Shown: piece by piece, positions 2,168 to 48,044 of the stretch
How the letters are laid out: each line of letters begins with the position of its first letter
Numbering within the stretch: position 1 is the stretch's first letter
Source: a virus
Virus record (IMG/VR): IMGVR_UViG_3300009159_000088
Location: 1 to 53,286 of that record
DNA length: 53,286 nucleotides
Reading direction: 5' to 3' (one strand)
The notes under the pieces: model-generated
Told to the model about the DNA's origin: nothing
Seen by the model: only the letters and a program-made list of their open reading frames with translations
The model's database searches: none
Translations under genes and position numbers: made by a program

Positions 2168-2196
2168 GTTTACTTTTAGCTGGTTTTGTGTAGGAT
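2168..2196 (+). promoter_or_regulatory. Early-type promoter for the 2206 gene
   Basis: GTTTAC (2168-2173), 17-bp spacer, TAGGAT (2191-2196) preceded by TGTG, as in T4 early promoters. The ATG lies 9 bases after the -10 hexamer. The promoter-to-start segment is almost identical to the one at 13695-13735. Confidence 0.8.
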
Positions 2197-2205
2197 TGTA
2201 TCATA

Positions 2206-2406
2206 ATGAATAACACTACTAATTACTCCGTCAACTACGCTTACAAATCTGGTGCCATGGAAGGCGTCCTCAAGGCTATGACCTATCGCTGGTCCATTCC
2301 GGGTGTGCAAATCACCGACCGTGAAGCCTTCGAGCAATTCATTGCCAAAGAAATTGCTCGGGTGAATAAGGACGCTATGGAATTCTCTAAAAACAATACT
2401 AACTAA
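2206..2406 (+). CDS. Hypothetical early protein, 66 aa
   Basis: A 66-residue protein beginning MNNTTNYSVNYAYKSG. It is soluble, with an acidic helix near the C-terminus (REAFEQFIAKEIARVNKD). It sits directly behind a strong early-type promoter with a leader of 0-3 bases. Many small early T4-family proteins modify host functions, but nothing in this sequence indicates its target. Confidence 0.65.
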   Translation: MNNTTNYSVNYAYKSGAMEGVLKAMTYRWSIPGVQITDREAFEQFIAKEIARVNKDAMEFSKNNTN

Positions 2407-6489: not shown

Positions 6490-6497
6490 TATTTATA
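6490..6497 (-). promoter_or_regulatory. T4-type late promoter box, minus strand
   Basis: TATAAATA read on the minus strand. If the box occupies -13 to -6 as in T4, the transcription start falls exactly on the A of the lipoprotein ATG at 6484, which predicts a leaderless late message. Confidence 0.8.
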
Positions 6498-7499: not shown

Positions 7500-7507
7500 T
7501 ATAAATA
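7500..7507 (+). promoter_or_regulatory. T4-type late promoter box upstream of the curli operon
   Basis: TATAAATA with a predicted start near 7513. It is the only late box between 7389 and the operon beginning at 7573, and should drive the curli/cyclase genes. A terminator-like hairpin lies between the start and the first gene, so read-through or antitermination would be needed. Confidence 0.7.
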
Positions 7508-7572: not shown

Positions 7573-7836
7573 ATGGCAACAAATAATTCTATAGACCCCT
7601 TTGACTTTGGTTTCACTACTATCGCCGAAGATGAACTTGACGTAACAAAGCAAGTAGACGTAGCCGAGAAGGCTGCTGCGCATCATGAAGACAGATTGAA
7701 TCGGTTATACCAATCAATCCTTCCGCTTCTCCAGAATCTCAAAAAGAACCCTGAGAAGGAATACATTAAATGGCCGAACAGGGTTAAGAAGATTGAGGAG
7801 TTTGAAGCTAATATTTCCAAGATTGTAAACGGATAA
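7573..7836 (+). CDS. Conserved T4-like hypothetical protein, 87 aa
   Basis: An 87-residue acidic, helical protein beginning MATNNSIDPFDFGFTTIAEDE. The DPFDFGF.....DE start and the KWPNRVKKIEEFE end are familiar from small proteins of marine T4-like phages. The function is not known to me. Its stop overlaps the next start (TAATGA), so it is the first gene of the packed operon leading to the curli and cyclase genes. Confidence 0.7.
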   Translation: MATNNSIDPFDFGFTTIAEDELDVTKQVDVAEKAAAHHEDRLNRLYQSILPLLQNLKKNPEKEYIKWPNRVKKIEEFEANISKIVNG

Positions 7837-8120
7837 TGAGTTTCGAAACACTTAAATCTCTTGCGGACCTTGGCTTCTCTGTTGCAGCAGTTATTGCTGG
7901 CGGAGTCTTCATTGTAATTCTCCTCAAGTATATCCTTGCGGGAGTGGTTGACGATGTAAAATCTTTGAATGGTCTTGCCGGCATGTTAAACAACCGTGTG
8001 CGTACAATGAATAATGACCTTATTCGGATTGATGCGCTCATCTCATCACGGTTCGGATTACGTGTCGATCTTGAACGTCTGGCGCGCAGCGATGGTAAGA
8101 CGGATGCCAGAAAGGATTAA
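7836..8120 (+). CDS. Single-span membrane protein, 94 aa
   Basis: A 94-residue protein with one strong membrane segment (about residues 13-37, FSVAAVIAGGVFIVILLKYILAG in outline), then an amphipathic helix containing RVRTMNNDLIRIDALI. It resembles the next protein in layout: one membrane span, then an R-R/T-M-NDLIR motif, suggesting a duplication. Small one-span proteins of this kind are sometimes called holin-like (UviB/BhlA type), but its place in front of csgF leaves a role in the curli system open. Confidence 0.65.
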   Translation: MSFETLKSLADLGFSVAAVIAGGVFIVILLKYILAGVVDDVKSLNGLAGMLNNRVRTMNNDLIRIDALISSRFGLRVDLERLARSDGKTDARKD

Positions 8121-8122
8121 TT

Positions 8123-8437
8123 ATGGATCCTATTGAACTAAAACAGATGATCAACCAGTACGGTATGCCAATGATGGCTGCCGCTGGTATGGGCTACTTT
8201 ATTTACTTTGTTTGGAAATTTGTGACGGAGAACATTAATTCTGAGCTGTCGGAAGCGAAGAAAACTATGATTGCGCTGATTGACCGAATTCGTATGCTTG
8301 ATAATGATTTAATTAGACTAGAACAAAAAATTAATACAGCTATCGAAATGCAACGCGGGGGTCCACATATTGTGCCACCCGCACCAATCACCAATGAAAA
8401 ACCTGCTCCTACTTCTAATACTCAGCTTCCTCAGTAA
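8123..8437 (+). CDS. Single-span membrane protein, 104 aa, paralogue of the previous one
   Basis: A 104-residue protein with a membrane segment near residues 15-33 (PMMAAAGMGYFIYFVWKF), then an amphipathic helix with LIDRIRMLDNDLIRLEQKI, and a Pro/Thr-rich tail. The LIDRIRMLDNDLIRL motif recurs in phage proteins with this layout. It begins 2 bases after the previous stop, and its 3' end overlaps csgF by 44 bases. A holin-like role is possible but unproven. Confidence 0.65.
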   Translation: MDPIELKQMINQYGMPMMAAAGMGYFIYFVWKFVTENINSELSEAKKTMIALIDRIRMLDNDLIRLEQKINTAIEMQRGGPHIVPPAPITNEKPAPTSNTQLPQ

Positions 8438-8849
8438 GGCTGTTGCATCTGATATGGTGCATGGTTTTAAGTCTCCAATGTTTAACGGCATTGGTTTTTC
8501 TTCACATGAAATCACCATTGAGAACCTTGCAAGAACCCGAAAGCAATCAATCAAAGATCAAGCGAAAGCGGATGCTGAAACTGCGAAAGTTACAGCGCAG
8601 AATACCCCGCTTAACGCATTTATCAATAACCTACAGGCTCGAATCTATTCTCAACTAGCATCTCAGGTCACGGATGCCATTTTTAACTCGGATGGAGCAA
8701 ACTTTGGCATTATTAATCTTCAAGGCGGATCAACGGTGACATGGCAAAAGAATGGCGATATGGTGACTCTTTACATTGTTGATCCTGCAACCGGAAATAC
8801 TACAACCATTCAAGTTCCTGTGGGAACATTGAAACCCGGCGGCGGCTGA
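8394..8849 (+). CDS. csgF: Curli assembly factor CsgF homologue
   Basis: This 151-residue protein has a signal peptide (MKNLLLLLILSFLSKAVAS) and then the CsgF pattern: an N-terminal F.SPMF.G.GF segment, equivalent to the F.NPNFGGNP region that inserts into CsgG, and a C-terminal half containing QARIYSQLASQVTDAIF and GDMVTLYIVDPATGNTTTIQV, matching the YIVDI..R.G...L.V.D..TG.T.TIQV region of E. coli CsgF (138 aa). CsgF forms a second constriction on the CsgG channel and couples export to nucleation. I chose the ATG at 8394 because it gives the signal peptide; it overlaps the upstream gene by 44 bases. Confidence 0.9.
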   Translation: MKNLLLLLILSFLSKAVASDMVHGFKSPMFNGIGFSSHEITIENLARTRKQSIKDQAKADAETAKVTAQNTPLNAFINNLQARIYSQLASQVTDAIFNSDGANFGIINLQGGSTVTWQKNGDMVTLYIVDPATGNTTTIQVPVGTLKPGGG

Positions 8850-8852
8850 TCG

Positions 8853-9668
8853 ATGGTGAAATTCATTTCCATACTCTTACTATCTTTGTTGTTCGGGGGT
8901 TGCGCTTCGGTTCCATCTAAGCCCGCCATCCTCGAGACCCCGAAGGTACAGATGTCCCCGATGGCAAAACAACTATTGGAACTTCCTCCAATTGATGGTC
9001 CTCGGATGACAATTGCGGTCTATGGCTTTGCTGATAAAACGGGACAGAGAAAGACTGCTGATGCCTATGCCACATTCTCTTCTGCCGTCACGCAGGGTGC
9101 AGAAAGCTGGCTCATTGATGCATTACGCCTTGCAGGAAATGGTGTATGGTTCCAGGTACTTGAACGTGCGAGCCTTGACGACATTATTAAGGAACGCCAA
9201 CTTATTTCCCAGACAAGAGAAACTTTCCTCGGTAAAGACGCCGAGAAACTCACCCCGATGTTATTTGCCGGCGTTATTGCGCAGGGCGGTATTATCGGAT
9301 ATGATAGCAATATCCTTACGGGAGGCGCTGGTGCCAGTATTCTTGGTATCTCCAGCAGTACTCAATATCGTAAAGACGTAGTAACAGTGTCGCTGAGACT
9401 CGTAAGCGTTCAAACAGGAGAGGTCCTCTTGAGTGTGGCTGTTACTAAAACCATTACGAGTATTGCCCTCTCGGGCAATCTATTTAAATTTTATGATCAC
9501 GGAACAACCCCGATTGAGTCAGAACTTGGTCTCACTGCAAATGAACCCAACGGCATCGCCGTACGGAGCGCTATTGATCAGGCAGTCATCGAAATCGTAA
9601 AACAGGGGCAAACAGCAGGTCTTTGGCAATTCAAAGACATAACCAACAATAACGCTAAAAAGAAATGA
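8853..9668 (+). CDS. csgG: Curli secretion channel lipoprotein CsgG
   Basis: This 271-residue protein is the outer-membrane export channel of the curli (type VIII) system, a nonameric lipoprotein pore. It has a lipobox (LLFGGC, Cys about 17) and the full CsgG domain: IAVYGFADKTGQRK, FSSAVTQGAESWLIDAL, WFQVLERASLDDIIKERQ, GIIGYDSNILTGGAGA, VSLRLVSVQTGEVLLSV and a C-terminal LFKFYDH.....E.G.T.NEP segment, all aligning with E. coli CsgG (277 aa). The length is full, so it is likely functional. It starts 3 bases after csgF and overlaps the curlin-like gene by 4. Confidence 0.95.
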   Translation: MVKFISILLLSLLFGGCASVPSKPAILETPKVQMSPMAKQLLELPPIDGPRMTIAVYGFADKTGQRKTADAYATFSSAVTQGAESWLIDALRLAGNGVWFQVLERASLDDIIKERQLISQTRETFLGKDAEKLTPMLFAGVIAQGGIIGYDSNILTGGAGASILGISSSTQYRKDVVTVSLRLVSVQTGEVLLSVAVTKTITSIALSGNLFKFYDHGTTPIESELGLTANEPNGIAVRSAIDQAVIEIVKQGQTAGLWQFKDITNNNAKKK

Positions 9669-10465
9669 AAACAAAACTAAAACTAGGATTCATTCTTGGG
9701 CTTATGCTATTAACTCCAGCCTTTGCCCAGAATCAGATATATGTGAATCAAATCACAACCGCGGGTTCCACAACCCTAATTCAGGTCGGCAGCCTGAATC
9801 GAATCGGCTCCTCTGGAGTTGCAAGTAACATCACCGGCGATAACATCACCTTTGAAACTCGCCAGATGGGAGATAGCAACAGTACTGACTTCTCTATTAT
9901 CGGAGCCAACAATCTGAGCTTGCTCGCTGTTGCCACGGGTAATACGAACACTCAGAAATACTTCATGAATGGTGGCAGCAATACATTCAATGTGTCGTTG
10001 GTCGGAAACACAAATTCGCTCACAGTGAATAAGGATGTCTCCGTCGATCACACCTCTGATACCGATACATCAAAGGCGACCATTGCGAACAGCGATGTCA
10101 CCATTGATGTAGTTGGTAGTTCAAACACGATGAAATTCGGATTTGAGAATGCTTCGTACAACTGGGTTGATTATAACATTACCGGTAGTTCGAATGTCAT
10201 AAAATCAACTCAGATCGGAAGCGTTGGTGCATCAACTCAGAGAGGCGGACATTATCAAGATGTTACCATCCTGGGTAGCACGAATAACCTCACCGTCTAT
10301 CAGGCTGGAATAGAACAGCAGAAGCTCGTCTATAATTTAACTGGTAGTAATAATACCGTTCAGATTATCCAGACCACAACGGCTGCTGCTCCTATTATGA
10401 CTACGGGTACATCGAACTACGGCGCCGCAAATCCAACTGCGACTATCTCGCCTCCGACTCCCTAA
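9665..10465 (+). CDS. Curlin-repeat (CsgA/CsgB-like) secreted protein
   Basis: A 266-residue protein with a signal peptide (MKTKLKLGFILGLMLLTPAFA) and about ten G-x-x-N turns (GSLN, GDSN, GANN, GNTN, GGSN, GNTN, GSSN, GSSN, GSTN, GSNN). They are often flanked by V/I-x-x strands and Q residues, as in curlin repeats, where each unit forms a strand-turn-strand rung of the amyloid. The repeats are less regular than in E. coli CsgA, and the last 25 residues are a Thr/Pro/Ala tail. Its place directly after csgG makes it the probable export substrate. Amyloid formation is inferred. Confidence 0.8.
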   Translation: MKTKLKLGFILGLMLLTPAFAQNQIYVNQITTAGSTTLIQVGSLNRIGSSGVASNITGDNITFETRQMGDSNSTDFSIIGANNLSLLAVATGNTNTQKYFMNGGSNTFNVSLVGNTNSLTVNKDVSVDHTSDTDTSKATIANSDVTIDVVGSSNTMKFGFENASYNWVDYNITGSSNVIKSTQIGSVGASTQRGGHYQDVTILGSTNNLTVYQAGIEQQKLVYNLTGSNNTVQIIQTTTAAAPIMTTGTSNYGAANPTATISPPTP

Positions 10466-10468
10466 TGT

Positions 10469-11623
10469 ATGCGCATAGCCGCAGCACTGTTTTTGTTTGC
10501 GGTTATTTTTATATCTGAAGCCAGTGCCTCGGTCGGGAAACTGACCGAGGTTACTGGTCCCACTCAGATTGTTCGTGGAAAGGATAAGTTAGAAGGTAAA
10601 ATTGGTACAGAGATAGAGCAGGATGATACCATCGAGACACTAAAGGCTCGGGTATCCATTAAATTCGAGGATCATACAGTAATGCAGATCACTGAGTTCT
10701 CGAAGCTCAAGATCGATGAATTTGTGTATGATCCTGCAAGTGGTAAGGGTAAGGTCGGAATGAAAACGGCATTCGGTACCGTTCGTTATGCTTCGGGTAT
10801 TATTGCAAAGAACAGCAGAGAAAACATTAAGGTCCAAACTCCTACCGCAAAGATTTCTGTTCGTGGTACGGATTTTTCAATGACCGTCTCCGAGGATGGT
10901 AAGAGTCTCATCATTCTATTACCTTCACGCCCCGAGTATAGCGCAACTCCTGGAACCGTGGGAGTCATCGAGGTGTCGAATGTAGCAGGAAGTGTCCTTA
11001 TGACTCAGGCATATCAGGCGACCTTTATCGCGTCAATGCAGTCCGCTCCTACAAATCCCGTCATACTTAACTTTCAAGATGAAAGCAAAATCAATAACTT
11101 GATTCTTGTTGAGACTCCGAAGCCCGTCACAAGTGCGGTAAAGGAAGCCAAGAAACAGACACAGGCAAACACATCCGAATCGGTAGATGATAAACCAAAC
11201 AAAAAATCAAGCGGCAAGAGTGATTCCTCTACTGCGGTTGCTCAGGTTGAACCTAGTACGTCTACTCAAGTTAAGGCTGAAGAAAAGCCTGTAGAAGAAA
11301 CTAAAACCGCCATCATCGATGTAAAGGCAATGCAGCCAGAAATACTGCAAGCCGTAGCAGAGGTCATCTCCAAGAATCCAGAGGTCACTATTGCAACATC
11401 GGTAAATATATCACCCACCTTGATTGTTACGGCAACGGTCAATAATGGGTTTACAACCGACGGTACAAACGCTATAATGAATCTTTCGACATCCAAAGGT
11501 ACAATTCAATACAAATTAAAAGCCGACACAAGTGCAACATTTAAGATTACCGACTCCAATGGAACCACGGTATACCCACTCAACTTCGGAGACAAACTCA
11601 AGGTAAACATCATTCAGAAATGA
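10469..11623 (+). CDS. Secreted FecR-domain protein
   Basis: A 384-residue protein with a signal peptide (about 1-20) and a FecR-type domain at about 22-140: G....VTGPTQIVRGKDK, IEQDDTIETLKARVSIKFEDHT, FGTVRYASG and VQTPTAKISVRGTDFSM. Residues 215-280 are a Lys/Glu/Ser/Thr-rich linker, and residues 285-384 a separate beta-rich domain. Periplasmic FecR domains typically transmit signals or bind envelope ligands. It starts 3 bases after the curlin-like gene and overlaps the cyclase gene by 4 bases (ATGA), so it may sense export or envelope state for the cyclase; that link is inference. Confidence 0.85.
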   Translation: MRIAAALFLFAVIFISEASASVGKLTEVTGPTQIVRGKDKLEGKIGTEIEQDDTIETLKARVSIKFEDHTVMQITEFSKLKIDEFVYDPASGKGKVGMKTAFGTVRYASGIIAKNSRENIKVQTPTAKISVRGTDFSMTVSEDGKSLIILLPSRPEYSATPGTVGVIEVSNVAGSVLMTQAYQATFIASMQSAPTNPVILNFQDESKINNLILVETPKPVTSAVKEAKKQTQANTSESVDDKPNKKSSGKSDSSTAVAQVEPSTSTQVKAEEKPVEETKTAIIDVKAMQPEILQAVAEVISKNPEVTIATSVNISPTLIVTATVNNGFTTDGTNAIMNLSTSKGTIQYKLKADTSATFKITDSNGTTVYPLNFGDKLKVNIIQK

Positions 11624-13659
11624 ACAAACACACACTCAGAATTCTTCTTGTTGGTCTTATGCTTCTCACGGTTGCCGTGAGTCTCCGCATTGCAAATCCG
11701 TATCCTATTGAGGTAATGCGTCTCAAAGGTCTGGATTATTACCAACGGAAGCAGGACAAGGTAGCGTCCGACAGTATTGTGATTGTGGAGATTGACGAGA
11801 AGGCGCTTGAAAAGAATGGACAGTGGCCATGGAAGCGTACGGAACTTGCAGGCGCAATAAGAAAAGCCATGGAGTCTGGAGCAACCGGTGTTGTATTACC
11901 CATTATTTTTGCTGAGCCTGACCGTCTTGGCGGCGATAAAGAATTCATCGAGATACTGAGTCAGTTTCCCGTTATTACAGGCCAATCAGCTTCACTAAAG
12001 GGTAAGGGCATTCCGATTCCACGCGGAGTTGCCACAATTGGTGGTAATACGGATGATTGGTTATTTGACTACCCTGCGGCAATCGGACCACTCAAAGAGA
12101 TTGGTGAGGCTTCCACGGGCGTGGGTATGTTGTTGACGGCTCCAGAGCTTGATGGCGTGGTGCGTAGATTGCCGCTCATGATTCAGATTGAAAAAGAAAA
12201 GTATCCCACAATGCCACTGGAAATCCTTCGGGTATTCGGCAACCAACCCAGCTTCCAGATCAAGGTTACAGAATCTGGTGTTTCTGCCATTCGGGTTCCG
12301 GGCACTCCTCCAATTAAGACTGATGGCAATGGGCGCGTGTGGATCAATTTTAAATATACCTTCAAGTCAGTTCCGTATACCGATGATGAATGGCACGTAA
12401 AGGATAAGATTGTAGTGATTGCCCTTACGGCTGAAGGTCTTGCAAATACCGTGGCAACTCCATTGGGTACGGCGTACGGACACGAATTCAGCCTTCAGAC
12501 TCTTCAGATGCTTCTTGATGGTAACCGACTTGAACGCCCAGCCGAGTTTGATCTATATGAAATCGCAATCGGTGTCGGTGCAGCGCTCATTCTGATTGGA
12601 GCGATCTCATTTTTGGGATATGCCTTGAATCTTGGTGTGTATCTTATTGCGGTATGTCTTCCCGTTTATTACGGCTTTCATTTATTCGATAAAGGTCTCC
12701 TTGCCGACTATACTTGGATTGTGGGTACAGCATCGGTAGTCTGGGCTGGTTCTCTCTTCATGCGATTCATCATGGAGTTTAAACTGAAACAGCAAATCAA
12801 GAAACAGTTTGGCACGTACCTATCTCCCGCCATGGTTGAGAAACTCCAAAAGAATCCTGACCTCCTCCAACTGGGCGGTGAGTCAAGAGAACTCTCCATT
12901 ATGTTTACCGATGTTCGTGGATTCACCGCAATCTCCGAACACTACGGCAAGGATGTTCAGGGTCTCACGAAAATTATGAATCGGTACATGACGGCAATGA
13001 CGCAAGCCATTCTGGACAACCAAGGGACGCTGGATAAGTACATTGGTGATGCTCAGATGGCTTTTTGGAACGCACCACTCGATGACAAGGATCATGCTCT
13101 ACACGCAGTTGAAACGGGTCTAACGATGCTGGGAAGTCTCAAGGCATTCAACGATGAGGTCACCAAGGAAGGTATCCCTGCATTCGGAATGGGTCTTGGC
13201 GTAAATACGGGTACCGTTGTTGTGGGTAATATGGGATCGACTCAACGGTTCGATTATACCTGCCTCGGAGATTCGGTGAACCTTGCCTCTCGTCTTGAGG
13301 GTCAGTCTAAACCCTACGGAGTCAAATTTGTAATTGGTCCCATCACCCGAGAATATGTGAAGGACGTATATCCCACGTTGGAACTGGATTGCATTGCGGT
13401 AAAGGGTAAGAAAGAAGGTGTGAAGATTTACACCGTATTCAACAGAGGTACACGCGTCTATTCAGATTCCCACAACAATTTTCTTGATTTCTACCGTAAT
13501 AGAGAATGGACCAAGGCACGTGTATTAGCCGTTGATTTAAAATCACATATGACTTTTCTAAGTGATTACTACGACATGATGGTAGAACGTATAGATGACC
13601 TTGAAAAAGCCGATCCTGGACCGCTCTGGGATGGTGTTTTCCGTGCAACTTCTAAGTGA
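11620..13659 (+). CDS. CHASE2-domain transmembrane adenylyl cyclase (class III)
   Basis: This 679-residue protein should make cAMP from ATP. Order of domains: N-terminal membrane segment (5-25), extracytoplasmic CHASE2 sensor (about 30-310), three membrane segments (about 315-395), cytoplasmic cyclase domain (about 420-600). The catalytic residues are present: metal-binding D431 in MFTDVRGFT and D477 in KYIGDAQMAFW, adenine-selecting K473 and D545/T547 (RFDYTCLGD), and transition-state N554 and R558 in VNLASR. An intact active site and a Lys/Asp specificity pair favour adenylyl over guanylyl cyclase. It is the last gene of the curli operon. A complete cyclase of this type is rare in a phage. 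Confidence 0.93.
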   Translation: MNKHTLRILLVGLMLLTVAVSLRIANPYPIEVMRLKGLDYYQRKQDKVASDSIVIVEIDEKALEKNGQWPWKRTELAGAIRKAMESGATGVVLPIIFAEPDRLGGDKEFIEILSQFPVITGQSASLKGKGIPIPRGVATIGGNTDDWLFDYPAAIGPLKEIGEASTGVGMLLTAPELDGVVRRLPLMIQIEKEKYPTMPLEILRVFGNQPSFQIKVTESGVSAIRVPGTPPIKTDGNGRVWINFKYTFKSVPYTDDEWHVKDKIVVIALTAEGLANTVATPLGTAYGHEFSLQTLQMLLDGNRLERPAEFDLYEIAIGVGAALILIGAISFLGYALNLGVYLIAVCLPVYYGFHLFDKGLLADYTWIVGTASVVWAGSLFMRFIMEFKLKQQIKKQFGTYLSPAMVEKLQKNPDLLQLGGESRELSIMFTDVRGFTAISEHYGKDVQGLTKIMNRYMTAMTQAILDNQGTLDKYIGDAQMAFWNAPLDDKDHALHAVETGLTMLGSLKAFNDEVTKEGIPAFGMGLGVNTGTVVVGNMGSTQRFDYTCLGDSVNLASRLEGQSKPYGVKFVIGPITREYVKDVYPTLELDCIAVKGKKEGVKIYTVFNRGTRVYSDSHNNFLDFYRNREWTKARVLAVDLKSHMTFLSDYYDMMVERIDDLEKADPGPLWDGVFRATSK

Positions 13660-13694: not shown

Positions 13695-13723
13695 ATTTAC
13701 TTTCAAAGAGTTTTGTGTAGGAT
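13695..13723 (+). promoter_or_regulatory. Early-type promoter for the 13733 gene
   Basis: ATTTAC (13695-13700), 17-bp spacer, TAGGAT (13718-13723), then 9 bases to the ATG. The last part of the spacer, the -10 and the start region are identical to those of the 2168 promoter. Confidence 0.8.
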
Positions 13724-13732
13724 TGTATCATA

Positions 13733-14065
13733 ATGAAAATTAAACGTGCCCAAGAACTTTACAACAGTAAATTGGAAATGGTTGCCTATGCTCAACTCAA
13801 TGAATGGCCAGAGCTTCGCGCAATAAAGACCACACTTTGGATTTTGGCCAATAAAATTGGCATTAGCCGAACCAAAATGCAACTGGATATTGATGCTGCG
13901 GTTCCTCGACTCGGACCGGCAGGTGAAGGCAGACTCGAAGAAAAGACCCTTGGGCTGAGAAAAAAAACCTGGCGTACAGCTCCAGGTGGACCAAGCTGGC
14001 GCCAAGAGCGTGAAAAAAAGAAATCTTATTCCAACGGTCGGTCGGGATGGATTCGTGGACATTAA
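13733..14065 (+). CDS. Hypothetical basic early protein, 110 aa
   Basis: A 110-residue protein with a helical N-terminal half (KRAQELYNSKLEMVAYAQLN through NKIGISRTKMQLD), which resembles a helix-turn-helix-sized segment, and a Lys/Arg/Trp/Gly-rich C-terminal half that is probably disordered and nucleic-acid-binding. No family recognised. It stands alone behind its own early-type promoter. Confidence 0.65.
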   Translation: MKIKRAQELYNSKLEMVAYAQLNEWPELRAIKTTLWILANKIGISRTKMQLDIDAAVPRLGPAGEGRLEEKTLGLRKKTWRTAPGGPSWRQEREKKKSYSNGRSGWIRGH

Positions 14066-14106: not shown

Positions 14107-14135
14107 ATTTACTTTGACACGGTTTTGTTTATGAT
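14107..14135 (+). promoter_or_regulatory. Early-type promoter for the transglycosylase gene
   Basis: ATTTAC (14107-14112), 17-bp spacer, TATGAT (14130-14135), then 9 bases (TGTATCATA, identical to two other early promoters) before the ATG at 14145. Confidence 0.75.
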
Positions 14136-14144
14136 TGTATCATA

Positions 14145-14582
14145 ATGAAAGTCAAACATATCCTCGCAATCCTGGCTATTACCGCTACCGTTTCGGCTCA
14201 AAATGTTGACCGCTTGATTGAAGCCCTGGTGCGTACCGAAAGCAACGGCAACGCTGCTGCCATCGGCGACCGCGGTAAAGCCCTTGGAATCCTTCAGATT
14301 CATGATGTGATGGTCAAGGACTTTAACCGTATCACCGGTAAGAATTACAGACATGCCGACATGTTCGACGAAATTACCTCTCGGGAGGTCGCCAGAGGCG
14401 TTCTGAATTTCTACTCAAAACACATTGAAAAAACCATGAACCGTAAAGCCACCGAAAAAGAGCTTGGTTTTATTTGGAACGGTGGCGGTAGTTCTTGGCG
14501 CCGTGTGGCGGCTCCGATTTCGGACACCAAGCAAAAGAATCTGGAAGCCTATTGGGCCAAGGTCTACAAAAACCTAAAGTAA
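14145..14582 (+). CDS. Exported lysozyme-like transglycosylase
   Basis: A 145-residue protein with a signal peptide (MKVKHILAILAITATVSA) followed by a compact SLT/lysozyme-like domain. The probable catalytic glutamate is E32 in ALVRTESNGN, and the GDRGKALGILQI motif (41-52) matches the substrate-groove pattern of lytic transglycosylases. It should cleave peptidoglycan glycan strands in the periplasm. It could be the phage endolysin, exported by the Sec system, or an early wall-modifying enzyme; the early-type promoter is odd for an endolysin. Confidence 0.8.
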   Translation: MKVKHILAILAITATVSAQNVDRLIEALVRTESNGNAAAIGDRGKALGILQIHDVMVKDFNRITGKNYRHADMFDEITSREVARGVLNFYSKHIEKTMNRKATEKELGFIWNGGGSSWRRVAAPISDTKQKNLEAYWAKVYKNLK

Positions 14583-14595
14583 TAAATAACCTCTG

Positions 14596-14720
14596 AAAGC
14601 ATCGTTTCAAAAGAGCTTACTTTCACTCAGAAGTAGATCATCGATCAACTACGACCACTTATGGTGGTTTATCTTTTATAAAGAATCTTCTTTGAGTAGG
14701 CTCCTTTGAAACGATGCTTT
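14596..14720 (+). ncRNA. 125-nt multi-branched inverted-repeat element (structured RNA candidate)
   Basis: A 21-bp outer stem (14596-14616 with 14700-14720, one A-C mismatch) encloses a second stem (14625-14633 with 14687-14697, with a 2-base bulge) and three small hairpins: 14633-14639/14643-14652 (with bulge), 14654-14658/14664-14668 and 14672-14676/14680-14684. The 3' arm ends in TTTTGTTGTTT, so it may also terminate transcription. No open frame crosses it. It could instead be a small inverted-repeat mobile element; no known RNA family is recognised. Confidence 0.5.
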
Positions 14721-14724
14721 TGTT

Positions 14725-14754
14725 GTTTACATTTGACCGACTTCACTTTAATAT
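14725..14754 (+). promoter_or_regulatory. Early-type promoter for the 14764 gene
   Basis: GTTTAC (14725-14730), 18-bp spacer, TAATAT (14749-14754), then 9 bases to the ATG at 14764. It begins 5 bases after the inverted-repeat element. Confidence 0.65.
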
Positions 14755-14763
14755 ATCTACATA

Positions 14764-15072
14764 ATGAAAAAATACACATACACTGAAATCAAGGATATTC
14801 TAAAAGAAAATTCCGTCGTAACGGTTTTCTTTACAAAAGTTAATGGTGAATCAAGAGTTTTGCAAGCGACTCTTTCACTCGATCTTATTCCAGAAGAACA
14901 TAGACCCACCGGCAATACTCCGCGGATTCAAAGCGAAGATGCGATTTGCGTCTATGATGTTGAAAATGAGGGATGGCGCGCGTTTCGTGTCGAGGGTATA
15001 ACACACATTGAGATCCCGGCTTTAGTTGAATCAGAATCTGAATCTGAAACCCAAGTCGAATTCATTGATTAA
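14764..15072 (+). CDS. SH3-like small phage protein (DUF2693-like), 102 aa
   Basis: A 102-residue protein. The first part (KDILKENSVVTVFFTKVNGESRVLQATL in outline) and the later DAICVYDVENEGWRAFRV match a family of small SH3-like barrel proteins in T4-related phages, which I recall as DUF2693. Function unknown. An acidic ESESESETQ tail follows the domain. The next gene begins immediately after its stop. Confidence 0.7.
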   Translation: MKKYTYTEIKDILKENSVVTVFFTKVNGESRVLQATLSLDLIPEEHRPTGNTPRIQSEDAICVYDVENEGWRAFRVEGITHIEIPALVESESESETQVEFID

Positions 15073-45320: not shown

Positions 45321-48044
45321 ATGCCTACCGAAGTCGAACGTACAGATACATTTGAAACATGGCGCCAAAAGAGTAATGCCATTTCTGCTGACCTTGGCAC
45401 GACTGCCCAGTTGCCTTCCGACCTGGTCCTGAAAACGATCACCCTTGCTGAAACTGGTAACTACACAGCAACTCAAACCGTTACAGGTTCACATTCCGGA
45501 TCGACTGCGACCGTTGTTTCGATTGATGGTACTGTTCTTACAGTTAAAAATGTATCGGGTAATTTCATTGATCGAAGCGTTCAAAAATCAACTCTAATAA
45601 TCGAGCTTTCGGGTTCTTCCAGTGTATACACTCCCGTTGCATTGGGTGTTGGTGGCCTTATTACGGGTACTGATTCATCTGGTACAAGCGGCAATGGCGC
45701 ATCCGGAGCAACAGCAAAGGTATTTTCGTGTACCGTTGTTACAGGTACCTTTATTAAATTAGTTGTATATGATATTACTGGATCGTTTAAACCAGGAACG
45801 GATTACATCAGTCAAGGGTCGACTAGATTTCTTTTAAAACAAATTGTTTTAAATGATGCATCCGATAATGGAGAAAATATTGTTCAATCGGTGAGTGTTT
45901 CAAAAGAAATTGTTCGTTTTAATCATGATGTAATTACTGCATTGAGCGAGATTAAGGACGGAGACACAACATTTAATGGCATTAAAACATTTGCCGATGA
46001 TGCAATTTTTCAGGATAATGTTACGATCAATGATAATCTTACCGTTGATACAAATACATTGTTTGTTGATTCGACAAATAATAGAGTTGGTATTGGAACA
46101 CTTACTCCCACAAAAACTCTTCATGTTCAAGGAACTCTAAGAGTAACCGGCGATGTTACATTTGATACTCCTATTCCACTTGATACCCAAACAAGCGGAA
46201 ATTATGTGGCAACTGTTACTGCTGGAGGCGGTATTTCAGTATCAGGATCTGGAACAGAAACTGCAGCAGTAACTGTTGAGCATTCTGATACATCTTCTGT
46301 TGCAAATTTAACTGCGGTGAGTCGCACTTACGTTACGGCTCTTGGTTTTGATACCTACGGACACGTTATTAATTATTCGACTGGAACAGAAACAACACCG
46401 TTGCAAGGCGTCCAGGGTATCCAGGGTATCCAAGGCACACAAGGTACTACTGGTACCGGAACTCAAGGCGTCCAAGGTGTTCAAGGTACAGTTGGTTCTC
46501 AGGGTATCCAAGGTATTCAAGGTGCATCGGGAAGCGGCGGAGCAGGCAGCGGAGCTCAAGGCATCCAAGGTATTCAAGGCATCCAAGGCACACAAGGTAC
46601 TACTGGTACCGGAACTCAAGGCATCCAAGGTACACTTGGTTCTCAGGGTATTCAAGGTTCTACTGGCGCTGGAACTCAGGGTACTCAAGGTATTCAAGGT
46701 ATTCAAGGGCAAATAGGACCCGGCGGCGGAGCTCAAGGTACTCAAGGTACACAAGGTGAACAAGGTATTCAAGGGAATACCGGAACTCAAGGTACTACTG
46801 GTGCCGGAACTCAAGGTGCTACTGGTACCGGAACTCAAGGTACTCAAGGTGCATCGGGAACCGGTAGCGGAGGAAGCGGTGCTCAAGGCGCTCAAGGCGT
46901 ACAGGGTATCCAGGGTATTCAAGGTATTACTGGTGCTCAAGGTATTCAAGGTATTACTGGTGCTCAAGGTATTCAAGGTGGTTTTGCAAATCTTACGGGC
47001 TTTATTGAATCCGCCACCGGAGCAGTTTCTACGCTTTCAGCTAATGGTAGACCGGTTCTTACAAACTTGGTCGCACCGGGAGATATGAATACTCTTGCGG
47101 GTACATTTAATATTTTTGCGGCAGGTTCCGGAAATGGTCATCTTGCATATTCGGTTTTATCGCAACCTGCAATAGGGAATGGAGCAGTGACTGGTACCGG
47201 TAATGGTAGTGGATCTGCGCTAACATTTCATAGCAATCAGGTAACCGGAAGTCCACAAAGAGTCTGGGGAACAACTAACGGCTCGCATTTCGAACTTTAC
47301 GAACCAAGCGGTATTCAAGGTACAGCAGGTGCTGATGGTAACGATGGTGCTCCTGGTGCTGATGGTAACGATGGTGCTCCTGGTGCGGATGGTCCGACTG
47401 GTCCAACTGGTGCTCCTGGTGCCGATGGTAATGATGGTGCTCCTGGCGCGGATGGTCCAACTGGTCCAACTGGTCCAACTGGTGCTCCTGGTGCCGATGG
47501 TAATGATGGTGCTCCTGGCGCGGATGGTCCAACCGGTCCAACTGGTGCTCCTGGTGCCGATGGTAATGATGGTGCTCCTGGTGCCGATGGTCCAACTGGT
47601 CCAACTGGTGCTCCTGGTTCTGATGGTCCAACTGGTCCAACTGGTGCTCCTGGCGATGCTGGTCCAACTGGTCCAACTGGTGGACCTGGTCCAACTGGTG
47701 CTCCTGGTGCCGATGGTCCAACCGGTCCAACTGGTCCAACTGGTGGACCTGGTCCAACTGGTGCTCCTGGCGATGCTGGTCCAACTGGTCCAACTGGTGC
47801 TCCTGGTTCTGATGGTCCAACTGGTCCAACTGGTGCTCCTGGTTCTGATGGTCCAACTGGTGCTCCTGGCGATGCTGGTCCAACTGGTCCAACTGGTGCT
47901 CCTGGTGCCGATGGTGGAACTGGTCCAACTGGTCCAACTGGTCCTTCTGGCGTTATAGCATTAGAAAGCATTAGTGGTTATAATTCTGGCGTCAATCAAT
48001 ATTTAAGAAATACTGCCGGCACATTTGAATGGGTAAACGAATAA
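45321..48044 (+). CDS. Collagen-like tail fibre, 907 aa
   Basis: A 907-residue fibre. The N-terminal 350 residues contain beta-modules ([20 protein letters not shown]) and a [20 protein letters not shown] segment typical of fibre attachment regions. Residues about 360-553 are G-x-Q/G-x-T triplets ([10 protein letters not shown]), residues 554-663 a globular domain, and residues 664-875 G-P-T/G-A-P/G-A-D triplets, ending in a short C-terminal domain ([19 protein letters not shown]). Long G-x-y runs form collagen-like triple helices in phage fibres. The triplets contain no Lys, so hydroxylysine-type glycosylation is not possible, but Thr in the Y position is frequent. Confidence 0.88.
46400..46980 (+). 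repeat. Collagen-like coding repeat, GIQ/GTQ type
   Basis: Degenerate tandem repeats built on GGTATTCAAGGTATCCAA-type 9-base and 18-base units, encoding G-x-Q triplets with short interruptions (GSGGAGSG). They create long spurious frames on both strands. Confidence 0.85.
47312..47945 (+). repeat. Collagen-like coding repeat, GPT/GAP type
   Basis: Tandem repeats based on GGTCCAACTGGTGCTCCT units, encoding [12 protein letters not shown] and related triplets. The low codon variation suggests recent expansion or ongoing recombination. Confidence 0.88.

Follow-up and report, generated by a model that had tools for sequence, protein, structure and literature searches.

A CHASE2 sensor cyclase, predicted to make cyclic AMP, is the last gene of a curli operon in a T4-like phage

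Organization of the curli operon

The DNA analysed, referred to below as the window, is the whole 53 kb (53,286 nucleotides) of an IMG/VR virus record, and because T4-like gp5, gp8 and gp32 and baseplate genes are present in this record it is phage DNA. A tRNA search made for host prediction found none in the window, and an Rfam search gave no match. The features of the operon, all on the + strand, are as follows.

7500–7507, +: T4-type late promoter TATAAATA, an exact site lying 73 bp upstream of the first operon ORF
7573–7836, +: ORF of 87 aa, first gene after the late promoter, no family match
7836–8120, +: protein of 94 aa in which hydropathy shows one membrane segment, phrog_18771 by PHROG
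8123–8437, +: 104 aa paralogue of the 94 aa protein, phrog_18771, overlapping the start of csgF
8394–8849, +: csgF, accessory protein of curli secretion, 151 aa counted from the ATG, signal peptide (Pfam CsgF, E 2e-17)
8853–9668, +: csgG, curli outer-membrane pore lipoprotein (Pfam CsgG, E 2.8e-49)
9665–10465, +: curlin-like repeat protein of 266 aa, assigned from homology, GxxN repeats and a signal peptide
10469–11623, +: FecR-domain protein, 384 aa (Pfam FecR at residues 53–146, E 2.2e-9)
11620–13659, +: CHASE2 adenylyl cyclase, 679 aa, assigned from a frame running from ATG to stop, its domains and its residues
11677–12570, +: CHASE2 sensor region of the cyclase, residues 20–317 (Pfam, E 8.5e-40)
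12886–13434, +: class III catalytic domain of the cyclase, residues 423–605 (Pfam Guanylate_cyc, E 8.8e-19)

From csgF to the cyclase, consecutive stop and start codons overlap or nearly touch, and the series ends with the cyclase. The gene content of a phage type VIII secretion system (T8SS, curli) cassette, namely csgF, csgG, a curlin repeat protein, FecR and a cyclase, is found here in one operon. The first-pass annotation had treated the cyclase as a lone sensor, a description that does not survive this arrangement. At the head of the operon, the 94 aa protein is possibly holin-like, and a homologue of it lies upstream of csgF in 19 of the 50 eligible viral loci.

The curlin-like protein has no Pfam match of its own. 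It aligns with proteins of the phages Melnitz and HTVC008M that are annotated as curlin-associated and with a Curlin_rpt protein of the bacterial genome L086 (see below). Its AlphaFold2 model consists of about 17 short strands in series, with a pLDDT of 77, and gave no match at E ≤ 0.001 when searched with Foldseek against the PDB. Taking together its homology, the GxxN repeats, the signal peptide and the model, this protein is probably the exported subunit.

Domains, membrane layout and catalytic residues of the cyclase

The cyclase frame at 11620–13659 begins with ATG, ends with a stop and has no internal stops, and the CHASE2 and Guanylate_cyc matches have Pfam scores that far exceed chance, which upholds the initial description of a complete transmembrane cyclase. 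Of the four membrane segments first proposed, three are clear by hydropathy (residues 4–27, about 310–333 and 338–356). The fourth, near 365–383, is weak, yet it fits the published CHASE2 layout (PMC5192318), where one membrane helix precedes the domain and three come after it, and with this weak helix counted the CHASE2 domain lies between the N-terminal helix and three later ones.

Both metal-binding aspartates of class III adenylyl cyclases, D431 and D477, are present, and these residues as well as K473, D545, T547, N554 and R558 carry the letters and numbers originally given. D431, K473, D477 and R558 are invariant in all 83 viral cyclase homologues. The other member of the transition-state pair formed with R558, N554, is found in 80/83 of them. 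The adenine-selecting pair consists of K473 and T547, the Lys-Thr combination of class IIIb, in which T547 is identified as the partner of K473 because of the count from the invariant Gly550. The first-pass annotation had listed D545 alongside T547 in this role; K473 and T547 stand, but D545 lies two residues before the selecting position. D545 is retained in 80 and T547 in 79 of the 83 viral homologues. In an alignment with PDB structures, K473 and T547 match the Lys and Thr of Pseudomonas aeruginosa CyaB (3r5g), and the same positions are Glu and Gly in 2w01, which we take to be the guanylyl cyclase Cya2. The gene is an intact, conserved membrane sensor enzyme that is predicted from these residues to make cyclic AMP.

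In the cyclases of L045, L053 and L082 (Melnitz), the transition-state Asn is replaced by Ser and Asp occupies the adenine position. Because of the Asn to Ser replacement, catalysis may be weak or lost in these phages while the operon stays.

Distribution and conservation among viruses

A relative of the cyclase is found in at least 599 IMG/VR loci, and the protein constitutes the PHROG family phrog_35576. Of the phages in GenBank, HTVC008M and four Melnitz strains carry it, with annotation as a cyclase in HTVC008M and Melnitz. Curli genes together with FecR and an adenylate cyclase were reported in podo- and myophages in 2022 (PMC9599517), and a partial curli cluster has also been reported (PMC7029224). 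With so many relatives and a module that is already published, the gene is not unusual in a phage as had been thought; the window cyclase is part of a curli module known from aquatic phages, to which it adds one more phage, and does not stand alone.

Among the fetched viral loci that extend more than 5.5 kb upstream of the cyclase, csgF, csgG, curlin and FecR accompany it in 41 of 41, in a sample seeded by close relatives. The dN/dS of the cyclase against close relatives is about 0.05–0.11, which indicates purifying selection. With the catalytic core conserved in the 83 viral homologues as well, the earlier statement that this is not a passenger fragment is well founded. On a 297 kb viral contig, a cyclase relative (G241:C1:81430-84294) is spread over two frames corresponding to residues 1–581 and 586–679, and is either a broken or a separated gene.

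A T4-type late promoter sequence preceding the operon

The window contains 10 exact TATAAATA sites, compared with 4 expected. All nine that have a next gene within the window lie 12–73 bp upstream of a gene start on the same strand, where the site at 6497 was scored against the ATG at about 6485 and not against the longer, mechanically listed TTG start. None of 20,000 random placements of the sites did as well (mean 0.47). In a survey of the 50 loci having enough upstream sequence, an exact site lies within 1.2 kb upstream of csgF in 25, compared with about 6 expected, many of the 50 being close relatives and not independent; in the other half of the 50, the exact site is absent from that interval. 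In several loci, including HTVC008M, it stands only 14–32 bp before csgF. The presence of a T4-type late promoter at the head of this operon is apparently new here. Judged from this promoter, the curli-cyclase operon looks late-expressed, which would point to the end of infection and not to an early takeover. The regulated cAMP production during infection that had been suggested for the cyclase is plausible.

Neighbouring elements outside the operon

Just downstream of the cassette lies an SLT-type lytic transglycosylase gene (14145–14582, +), possibly a lysis or envelope gene. Between it and the ORF at 14764 is a hairpin (14585–14740, +) with a minimum free energy of −52.4 kcal/mol (z −7.8) and no Rfam match. 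The hairpin is 95–99% identical in 11 relatives, compared with a dS of about 0.2–0.8 in the neighbouring cassette genes, and one stem pair is changed on both sides in L003 and L007, from GCAUCGUUUC/GAAACGAUGC to GCACCGUUUC/GAAACGGUGC. It is a candidate for a new structured RNA. A repeat, GATTGTATCATAATGAAA, lies across start codons at 13721–13738, 14133–14150 and 2194–2211 (+); these three copies have at most 1 mismatch, compared with 0.1 expected at up to 3 mismatches, and the repeat, which follows directly on the cyclase operon, probably serves as a unit of early-type promoter and ribosome site. Elsewhere in the window, a 907 aa ORF (45321–48044, +) lies in a stretch whose GC content is clearly raised, at 0.50 against about 0.39 nearby.

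FecR as a probable periplasmic partner of CHASE2

The sole hydrophobic segment of the phage FecR protein by hydropathy is its N-terminal 25 residues, a signal peptide, and the rest is periplasmic. The layout of FecR anti-sigma regulators, in which a cytoplasmic anti-sigma domain is followed by a helix and the FecR domain, is not found in this protein. A role as an anti-sigma or iron regulator was rejected as a poor fit to this topology, which leaves no cytoplasmic part.

Of 48 bacterial loci with long flanks, 18 have a FecR gene directly before that of the CHASE2 cyclase, and 29 have one somewhere in the locus. RTX repeats were found in three of five bacterial FecR-domain proteins scanned, one of the three falling below the curated cut-off. 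On two Rhizobiaceae plasmids, the FecR/CHASE2-cyclase pair lies in NHLP export loci that also encode cyclic-nucleotide-binding proteins. The BiofilmReg operon of Burkholderia, which regulates biofilm, combines a FecR-domain protein with a CHASE2 histidine kinase (PMC5192318). There, as in the window, a periplasmic FecR-domain protein is encoded beside a CHASE2 sensor, whereas the output is a histidine kinase with a response regulator and not a cyclase. From the adjacency in bacteria, the NHLP loci and the Burkholderia pair, we infer that, near export systems, CHASE2 probably has FecR as its partner in the periplasm; the adjacency could also come from shared ancestry of the locus and not from contact. 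That alphaproteobacterial CHASE2 cyclases often lie beside FecR-domain proteins, which suggests a partnership, is apparently new here, and a literature search on FecR with CHASE2 found no phage report.

Cyclic-nucleotide-binding proteins of related phages and possible targets of cAMP

Some related phages encode a cyclic-nucleotide-binding protein of 213–228 aa, transcribed divergently from csgF and ending in a hydrophobic C-terminal tail. Its occurrence beside the cassette is apparently new here. Examples beside csgF are the following.

L038:5709-6350, −: cyclic-nucleotide-binding protein
L042:3864-4526, −: cyclic-nucleotide-binding protein
L053:4370-5017, −: cyclic-nucleotide-binding protein
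L045:510-1196, −: cyclic-nucleotide-binding protein
L017:5603-6259, −: cyclic-nucleotide-binding protein

The binding pocket is intact (GEGALVSxxPRNAT), a profile of the family matches PKA/PKG regulatory domains and cyclic-nucleotide-gated channels, and Pfam finds no DNA-binding domain in it. In the AlphaFold2 model the cNMP domain is good and the C-terminal part, with pLDDT < 50, is unusable. The protein was found on 19 viral contigs, nine of which also carry the cyclase; contigs of 140 kb (G228) and 185 kb carry it without a cyclase. It is essentially absent from the GenBank phage collection, which gave one weak partial match. No cyclic-nucleotide-binding protein was found in the window, in L009 (a close relative of 140 kb), in Melnitz or in HTVC008M, and since the window and L009 do without this one, it is not a required partner of the cyclase. 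A phage CRP was also considered as the cAMP target, and none was found in the window.

That neither the window nor its close relatives encode a cAMP receptor would suit an auxiliary metabolic gene, with the cyclase feeding general host cAMP-CRP physiology (carbon metabolism, surface, biofilm) and the operon giving co-expression only, as would the fact that in Gammaproteobacteria cAMP drives curli regulation via CsgD (PMC9599517). The constant company of the curli and FecR genes, in 41/41 viral loci with enough flank, albeit in a sampling seeded by relatives, argues against it, and so does an operon that looks late-transcribed. In T4-like phages, host transcription is normally off late in infection. 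We regard this explanation as unlikely.

The late promoter and the small membrane proteins at the operon head could also belong to a lysis-timing device, in which CsgG and CsgF would form a gated outer-membrane pore, the one-span proteins would be holins and cAMP would set the time; the hydrophobic C-terminal segment of the relatives' cyclic-nucleotide-binding protein, encoded beside the cassette, fits such a device too. It has in part been proposed for Melnitz, as a lysis pore (PMC9004378). The conserved curlin-like subunits with their signal peptides would be superfluous for a pure pore, however, and the small proteins at the operon head match no holin family, so that this account appears rather improbable.

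In PADLOC, PycC models match the catalytic domain and PycTIR/effector models match the relatives' cyclic-nucleotide-binding proteins, as would be expected of a Pycsar-like pair in which a pyrimidine cyclic nucleotide opens a membrane effector and excludes other phages. These matches, however, do not reach beyond the class III and cNMP domains that are shared. Four positions ahead of the second metal Asp, the window cyclase has Lys, the adenine type, whereas the cCMP-making EaPycC has Arg (PMC11224242), and the window encodes no cyclic-nucleotide-binding transmembrane or TIR effector. A Pycsar-like function is very improbable, and membership of Pycsar itself was rejected since the pyrimidine-selecting residues are not found (Lys, not Arg) and no effector is adjacent.

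If the relatives' cyclic-nucleotide-binding protein answers to the cyclase, a cAMP circuit would exist that belongs to the phages themselves. We consider it quite doubtful that phages possess such a complete circuit linked to curli export, with a FecR/CHASE2-gated cyclase and, in some relatives, a membrane effector that is gated by cAMP and either times lysis or keeps out other phages.

Proposed role of the cyclase

We favour, with some reserve, a cyclase that acts as the inner-membrane sensor of the phage curli (type VIII secretion) cassette, made late, gated by FecR and producing cAMP. Late in infection, the operon would be transcribed as one unit from the TATAAATA promoter at 7500, giving the pair of small membrane proteins, CsgF, CsgG as the pore, the curlin-like subunit, the FecR protein and the cyclase. 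FecR would bind CHASE2 in the periplasm and report subunit export or the state of the periplasm, and CHASE2 would signal through the membrane helices to the dimeric class IIIb catalytic domain, which would make cAMP. The receptor would be a host CRP-like protein in the case of the window phage, and in some relatives the phage cyclic-nucleotide-binding protein. The late-looking cassette, FecR as the probable partner of CHASE2 and the matching bacterial operon described below provide testable points on why phages carry curli genes.

Comparison with known systems

The genes and gene order of the window cassette are the same as those of HTVC008M gp014–gp019 and Melnitz gp99–gp104, whose cyclases are 42% identical to the window cyclase over 89–98% of its length. 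The window has one curlin gene where the published phage T8SS clusters of HTVC008M and Melnitz have two, and, again compared with the published clusters (PMC9599517; HTVC008M, Melnitz), no histidine kinase was identified upstream.

The best bacterial match of the cyclase is in L086, a Caulobacteraceae metagenome-assembled genome that has the full csgF-csgG-curlin-curlin-FecR-cyclase set among bacterial genes. A second Caulobacteraceae genome, L179, has ORFs that match those of L086 in order and size, and its cyclase is 93% identical to that of L086. The cassette order in these two genomes is that of the window, and the cyclase is 40% identical to the window's; they differ from the window in having two curlin genes, in lying in bacterial genomes and in adjoining glycosyltransferase, S9 peptidase and TonB-receptor genes. 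That L086 might be a misbinned phage was rejected, as the genes around its cassette are bacterial ones for metabolism and TonB functions and the second genome has the same layout. The cyclase and FecR have been stated not to occur within bacterial T8SS operons (PMC9599517), and the two Caulobacteraceae genomes apparently provide a new counter-example. A bacterial operon of the same make-up bears on where the phage cassette came from; in an unrooted tree, the long branch of the L086 cyclase attaches at the foot of the phage clade, and such a tree gives no direction of transfer between Caulobacteraceae and phage.

Most of the other bacterial relatives of the cyclase are alphaproteobacterial. Cyclases of the Sinorhizobium meliloti CyaD1 type and other rhizobial adenylate/guanylate cyclases combine CHASE2 with a class III domain, as in the window, and are regulators that act via the CRP-like protein Clr (PMC5498481, PMC13001267). 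The homologues on rhizobial plasmids align over most of the window cyclase at 29–35% identity, but those examined lie outside curli operons, unlike the phage gene, which closes one.
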